Shown: piece by piece, positions 20,425 to 21,567 of the stretch
Position numbering within the stretch: the stretch's first letter is position 1
Layout of the letters: each line of letters begins with the position of its first letter
NCBI GenBank assembly: GCA_014377045.1
Contig: JACMQI010000014.1
Span: forward strand, 1-64,000
DNA length: 64,000 nucleotides
From: a candidate division SR1 bacterium
Lineage (GTDB): Bacteria; Patescibacteriota; JACMRA01
Reading direction: 5' to 3'
Translations under genes and position numbers: made by a program
The notes under the pieces: model-generated
Told to the model about the DNA's origin: nothing
The model's database searches: none
Seen by the model: only the letters and a program-made list of their open reading frames with translations

Positions 20425-21567
20425 TTATTTGACCTCACAAAATCCTTCCCACCAGCTATCAAATTGATCTGATGAAATCTTATCTCGTATCAATTCTGTC
20501 AGATTTAAGTAGTACTCTAAATTATTTAGCGTTGCAAGTCTATATGCTAATAGCTCTTTAGACACAAAAAGATGCCTAAGATATGCCTTTGAGTAAGTAC
20601 GTAACTCTATAAATTTTGAATTTTCATTAATTGGACTAAAATCTGTTGCATTTTCGTTTTTTAGTATACGAAGCGTTCTATATTGACTATCTCCAACTCC
20701 TATAAATAGAGATCCATGTCTCGCATTTCTAGTTGGCATGACACAGTCGAACATGTCGATACCTCGCGCAACCATCTGAACAATATCTTTAGGCGTTCCG
20801 ACCCCTAACAAGTGCCTTGGTTTATACTCTTCAAGAATTTCTGTTTGAGATAACACTTGTGAATACATAGTTTCTTCTGGCTCACCTCCATTAGCTACAC
20901 CTCCAATAGAATAGCCAGAAAAATCTAACTCTTTTGTGAGTCGGGCGGATTCTCTTCGCAAAACTTCAAACTGAGCACCTTGAGGAATACCAAAAAGATT
21001 ATTATAATGATTTGTTTCTAGCCTCAGTTTTTCAAACTCATCTTTACTACGCTGGGCCCACCTAATTGTCCTTTCCATGGCTTTACGCGCCACCTCATAT
21101 GTTATCTCGGCAGGTAAGCACTCATCAAGGACCAAGGCAATATCCGAGCCAATAATCGTTTGAATACTAATCGATTTTTCTGGACTTAGAAAACGTTTTT
21201 CACCATTTAGGTGAGATCTAAATTCTACACCTTCTTCTGTAAATTTACTAATTTTTGTTAAACTAAAAGCTTGAAAACCTCCAGAATCAGTTAAGATAGG
21301 TCTTTTCCAAGAGCTAAAATTATGAAGACCACCTGCACTACTAAGCACATCTAAATCTGGTCTAAGCCATAAATGATAGGTATTTCCTAAAATAATCTGG
21401 GCATTAAGCTCTTCTAAATCGGTAAATGTCAGACTTTTAACAGTACCTTGAGTACCAATTGGCATAAAAATAGGAGTTAAGACATCACCATGAGATAAGC
21501 TTAATATGCCTGCCCTAGCTTTTGTTTTTTCTGATTTTTTTACAATTTTAAATAGATCTCTTTTCAT
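20425..21567 (-). CDS. tgt: tRNA-guanine transglycosylase (Tgt) lacking its zinc site
   Basis: 380 residues, normal length. Core motifs are intact: LTDSGGFQAFSL with the general acid/base Asp, FDCVMPTRNARHG with the nucleophilic Asp, and the HLLGVGTPKDIVQMVARGID block. Tgt swaps guanine 34 for preQ1 in GUN-anticodon tRNAs. The C-terminal Zn site (C-x-C-x-x-C ... H) is replaced by Ser317, Phe319, Leu322 and Asn348, although flanking SPINEN, YSKAYLRHLF and NLEYYL align without gaps. The substrate loop reads IGGVANGGEP instead of IGG-LAVGE-P, with one extra residue. It is last in HIT-murC-tgt. No preQ1 synthesis gene is nearby. Confidence 0.93.
   Translation of the reverse strand: MKRDLFKIVKKSEKTKARAGILSLSHGDVLTPIFMPIGTQGTVKSLTFTDLEELNAQIILGNTYHLWLRPDLDVLSSAGGLHNFSSWKRPILTDSGGFQAFSLTKISKFTEEGVEFRSHLNGEKRFLSPEKSISIQTIIGSDIALVLDECLPAEITYEVARKAMERTIRWAQRSKDEFEKLRLETNHYNNLFGIPQGAQFEVLRRESARLTKELDFSGYSIGGVANGGEPEETMYSQVLSQTEILEEYKPRHLLGVGTPKDIVQMVARGIDMFDCVMPTRNARHGSLFIGVGDSQYRTLRILKNENATDFSPINENSKFIELRTYSKAYLRHLFVSKELLAYRLATLNNLEYYLNLTELIRDKISSDQFDSWWEGFCEVK

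Follow-up and report, generated by a model that had tools for sequence, protein, structure and literature searches.

Can a bacterial tRNA-guanine transglycosylase (Tgt) do its work after losing every ligand of its zinc site, and how far does such a loss extend? The question is raised by a gene in the window, the whole 64,000-nucleotide stretch of DNA from a candidate division SR1 bacterium that was analysed here. The genome that contains the window is 1.04 Mb and 86% complete, and its class comprised six genomes of one family. The gene and its former zinc site are as follows.

20425 to 21567, minus strand: tgt, tRNA-guanine(34) transglycosylase of 380 aa without zinc ligands (ORF with Pfam and NCBIfam profile matches)
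20602 to 20619, minus strand: former C-x-C-x-x-C segment, now S317-K-F319-I-E-L322 (alignment)
20619 to 20617, 20613 to 20611, 20604 to 20602 and 20526 to 20524, minus strand: codons of S317, F319, L322 and N348, respectively (alignment on E. coli Tgt)
20524 to 20526, minus strand: position of the lost zinc His, occupied by Asn348; the other class members have Asn, Gln or His there (alignment)

Identity and fold of the protein

The protein scored 438 bits against Pfam TGT, over the curated cut-off, and was a full-length match to NCBIfam TIGR00430 (423 bits; cut-off 306.75). Archaeosine TgtA was excluded by a TIGR00432 score of 111 bits against a cut-off of 350. The AlphaFold2 model showed the Tgt TIM-barrel fold with a mean pLDDT of 89.7, and the fold is predicted with confidence. 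Solved relatives include E. coli, Zymomonas and other Tgts, the best structural match being Zymomonas Tgt 1ozm (TM-score 0.91). In the C-terminal region residues 311-350 had a block pLDDT of 92-96, with a helix layout equal to that of a zinc-bearing control whose model came from one shared sequence set; AlphaFold2 places no metal, and this agreement shows only that sequence and fold are compatible.

The former zinc site

Ligand positions were read from an alignment with E. coli Tgt as its anchor. C302, C304, C307 and H333 of the E. coli enzyme aligned gap-free to S317, F319, L322 and N348. The replacement of all four ligands was therefore found exactly where the original prediction had placed it. 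Its claim that the surroundings are kept also held, as the flanking motifs YSKAYLRHLF and NLEYYL and both catalytic residues, D94 and D274, were present. Segment 311-350 contains no Cys, and its sole His is the dimer residue His332.

The class shares the loss. Tgt was found in five of the six genomes (the genome without it is 68% complete), and the three zinc Cys were missing in all five proteins, the other four being 57-74% identical to that of the window. Loss shared among relatives had been proposed as a check, and no class member had intact Cys. Sequencing error was ruled out as the loss is common to five assemblies. The ligand positions read SFLN, SFLN, SILQ, SILQ and SFLH. The replacement pattern S-x-[F/I]-x-E-L-R was conserved, with Ser317 and Glu-Leu-Arg (including the third ligand position) invariant and the middle residue Phe or Ile. 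The expectation of hydrophobic replacement was thus borne out in part, for the Phe/Ile and Leu of S-x-[F/I]-x-x-L and not for its Ser. The His position varied, being His in G002 and Gln in G003 and G005. Because the G002 protein still has the His, it is suggested that the Cys were lost before the His in this class. No second, zinc-bearing Tgt was found in the window's genome, which gave one match only.

The tgt frames were intact in four of the five class members. In G001, the nearest relative, an apparent frameshift was seen near residue 33 at a T run (L256:9811-10000), where error and decay are indistinguishable. A conserved tgt-murC-HIT operon was considered and rejected, as the unit was not kept across the class: murC and HIT lie about 1 kb from tgt in G001, and neither was within the stretch examined in G002, G003 and G005.

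Zinc ligands were kept elsewhere in the cell. In the window, L32 retained two CxxC pairs and RpoC the clusters CxC...CxxC and CxxC. The suggestion that the lineage had dispensed with zinc therefore applies to Tgt and not to the cell, and among the proteins examined only Tgt had lost its site.

Recurrence of the loss across bacteria

A survey was made of 237 Tgts, each at least 330 aa. Three zinc Cys were present in 179 of these, none or one in 58, and two in none. Such sharply bimodal counts would be expected where partial sites are not retained. CxCxxC and His are usual in bacterial Tgt (TIGR00430); given the 58 of 237 sampled members without the Cys, the zinc site was not treated as defining this family.

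A tree was inferred without the zinc columns, using quick searches and SH-aLRT support only, so that the number of losses is approximate. The fewest changes were about 11, of which about 9 fell inside the window's phylum, compared with about 52 for shuffled labels. Among the zinc-less clades were one of 29 Bacteroidota (support 98), the window's class (100), several other families of its phylum and two Verrucomicrobia. The full site was kept in four Bacteroidetes-titled sequences (L090, L092, L095 and L097) and in Ignavibacteriales L096, which L090 joined on the tree. The original prediction had pointed to a change special to one lineage. Judged from the alignment and the tree, the site has been lost repeatedly and is missing more widely than was first thought. 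Among the named genomes 31 of 81 (E. coli included) were zinc-less, a biased frequency given sampling by similarity to a zinc-less query.

The sister clade of the window's class, a clade of its own phylum, is zinc-bearing (SH-aLRT 96-98, zinc columns excluded). The loss in the class was therefore independent of that in Bacteroidota, and horizontal transfer of a Bacteroidota Tgt is not favoured. The zinc-less Bacteroidota proteins (for example L086, L123, L134 and L144) resemble that of the window in lacking the three Cys and in being the sole Tgt of a genome with QueA; their own genomes mostly have QueG too. Unlike the window's protein, they mostly keep the His, have Asp or Ser at the third Cys position where the window has Leu, carry a canonical GGLSVGEP loop and have a separate origin on the tree.

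Catalytic, dimer and loop residues

Four further features were located by alignment.

20746 to 20748, minus strand: catalytic nucleophile Asp274 (Zymomonas Asp280)
21286 to 21288, minus strand: catalytic Asp94 (Zymomonas Asp102)
20572 to 20595, minus strand: Y325, Y329 and H332, retained, corresponding to dimer hot spot residues W326, Y330 and H333 of Zymomonas
20881 to 20904, minus strand: substrate loop G222-GVANGG-E229, one residue over GGLAVGE (block pLDDT 67)

The equivalents of Zymomonas Asp102, Asp280, Asp156, Gln203 and Gly230 were all retained as D94, D274, D148, Q196 and G223, and C150 corresponds to Cys158. The catalytic residues were invariant across the class Tgts, and the D102, D156, Q203, G230 and D280 equivalents were found in 59 of 59 zinc-less Tgts. 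The homodimer hot spot of Zymomonas Tgt consists of Phe92, Trp326, Tyr330 and His333 (PMC5395182). The window has F84, Y325, Y329 and H332 at these positions and all are invariant in the class, so the altered dimer contact that had been suggested is unlikely.

The extra residue described in the substrate loop was confirmed (GGVANGGE compared to GGLAVGE in E. coli). A link between this residue and the zinc loss was rejected. Two zinc-bearing Tgts of the neighbouring clade, L008 and L229, have this loop as well, and the zinc-less Bacteroidota have the canonical one; the insertion is therefore a separate trait, unlinked to the loss.

Queuosine pathway around zinc-less Tgts

In 14 Bacteroidota/Verrucomicrobiota genomes the zinc-less Tgt was the only TGT-family protein. 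QueA was present in all 14 and QueG was above the cut-off in 11, so the pathway around the zinc-less Tgt has been maintained. Some Bacteroides species are typically able to synthesise queuosine (PMC11130926). The sole Tgt, QueA and QueG, the catalytic residues kept in every zinc-less Tgt and queuosine synthesis in Bacteroides together argue that zinc-less Tgt is functional, as far as sequences can indicate. In nine Bacteroidota genomes (L086, L087, L091, L099, L123, L134, L142, L143 and L152) a second QueA-family protein, from frames of about 390-436 aa, was seen beside the usual protein of about 355 aa.

Fewer pathway genes were seen in the window's class. The window's genome encodes QueA (G000 C5:22135-23163; L255:9906-10970), and none was seen in the five remaining genomes of the class, whose assemblies are 68-86% complete overall. 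Searches of all six (68-86% complete) gave no QueG, QueH or QueT and no credible QueC. A QueC match in G002 was not counted: it was partial, spanning 77 of the 210 positions within a frame of 681 aa, and is probably another PP-loop enzyme. No known transporter was detected in the window's genome at 86% completeness, and QPTR/YhhQ was found only in G002 among the class genomes. The queuosine pathway of the window's genome looks truncated. With QueA but without QueG or QueH it may end at epoxyqueuosine or rely on an unknown reductase, or the gene may be outside the assembled part of the genome. For the class, salvage of preQ1 that goes no further than preQ1- or oQ-tRNA is likely.

Explanation of the zinc-less Tgt

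The window's protein is a known enzyme in a natural form that lacks the zinc site, and not a new kind of system. It shares with canonical Tgt (Zymomonas 1pud/1ozm and E. coli) the fold, the catalytic and base-recognition residues, the hot spot and TIGR00430 membership. It differs in lacking CxCxxC..H, in the extra loop residue and in having Leu at the Met260 position. From the sequence evidence it is quite probably an active preQ1-type Tgt in which the structural zinc has been replaced by side-chain packing and the fold kept. For the window's protein itself we infer that no zinc is bound, that it is active and that preQ1 is the base. By the normal Asp94/Asp274 mechanism a 7-deazaguanine base, most probably preQ1, would take the place of G34 in tRNAs with a GUN anticodon. 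The canonical zinc would act as a structural brace of the C-terminal subdomain at the dimer interface, helping to hold the tRNA. The class ancestor would have lost the three Cys, and most members would then have lost the His. The brace would be taken over by packing of the small and hydrophobic Ser317, Phe/Ile319, Leu322 and Asn/Gln348, with the dimer hot spot kept.

A Tgt with changed base specificity, for queuine or another deazaguanine, with the zinc loss as part of the change, is unlikely. The queuine switch in Tgt needs both Val233 to Gly, which opens the pocket to queuine, and Cys158 to Val (PMC6165067, PMC4425180). The loop GGVANGGE does place Asn/Gly where Zymomonas has Val233, Leu occupies the Met260 position throughout the class, and a finished base could be salvaged in the five class genomes where QueA was not found. 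However, the second substitution was not seen, as the Cys158 position is Cys in four of the five class members and Leu in the fifth, and many zinc-bearing Tgts (56 of 179) likewise have Leu at the Met260 position. The lack of linkage between loop and zinc loss also counts against it, as does QueA in the window's genome, whose substrate is preQ1-tRNA. Eukaryotic QTRT1 belongs to the same enzyme class and has a loop Gly where Zymomonas has Val, a possible parallel, but its Cys3-His zinc site is intact and its Cys158 position is Val (PMC6165067), neither of which applies to the window's protein. The window's Tgt did not show the pair of substitutions of the queuine (QTRT1-like) type, its loop being altered and C150 retained. 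The changed base substrate that had been proposed is not supported for the window, where the Cys158 equivalent and QueA are both present; no QueA was seen in the other class members. For those QueA-less members it is quite unlikely that the Tgt, with its widened loop and no zinc brace, inserts some different base in place of preQ1, for instance queuine obtained by salvage from cells nearby, and so acts as a zinc-free enzyme of queuine salvage.

It is very unlikely that the gene is decaying or its product catalytically inactive, kept for example merely as a tRNA-binding protein. The absence of QueG and QueH from the class genomes searched, QueA in one of six and the apparent frameshift in G001 would fit decay, but the catalytic residues are invariant at 57-74% identity, four of five frames are intact, the replacing residues are conserved and TIGR00430 is matched far above its cut-off. 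That zinc is still bound through other nearby residues is barely credible: in Bacteroidota the third Cys is often Asp with the His kept (GSDH, SLDH), a potential metal holder in principle, but the window has Ser, Phe, Leu and Asn at these positions and, in 311-350, no Cys and no His beyond the dimer His332.

An active preQ1-type Tgt with a replaced structural zinc would have parallels in other translation-related proteins that occur naturally with and without zinc ligands. A zinc-free domain of GluRS is natural and experimentally tested (PMC4381286), and ribosomal protein S4 exists in zinc and non-zinc forms (PMC3087516). These belong to different families, and GluRS has been shown by experiment whereas zinc-less Tgt is known from sequence. 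Zinc-free GluRS serves as an experimental precedent for a domain that naturally lacks its zinc.

A statement in PMC9508795, citing Chong et al. 1995, holds that TGT requires zinc for activity. The literature searched yielded no structure, biochemistry or report of a Tgt naturally without its zinc site, and prior mention elsewhere is possible. Zinc in Tgt looks like a replaceable brace and not a requirement, and zinc-less Tgt offers a testable challenge to the statement above. If whole bacterial groups, a large Bacteroidota clade among them, do run the queuosine pathway with a Cys-less Tgt, the zinc would be a dispensable structural brace, and Tgt could not be the route by which zinc supply and queuosine are linked in these groups. 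The proteins would also form a natural replacement series for probing the role of the metal in dimer stability and tRNA binding.

Non-canonical loops (such as GGWP, GGFV, GGSF or GGETIGY) were also observed in 77 of 129 zinc-bearing Tgts of the phylum, for example L027, L030, L037, L046 and L048. These may reflect altered base specificity.
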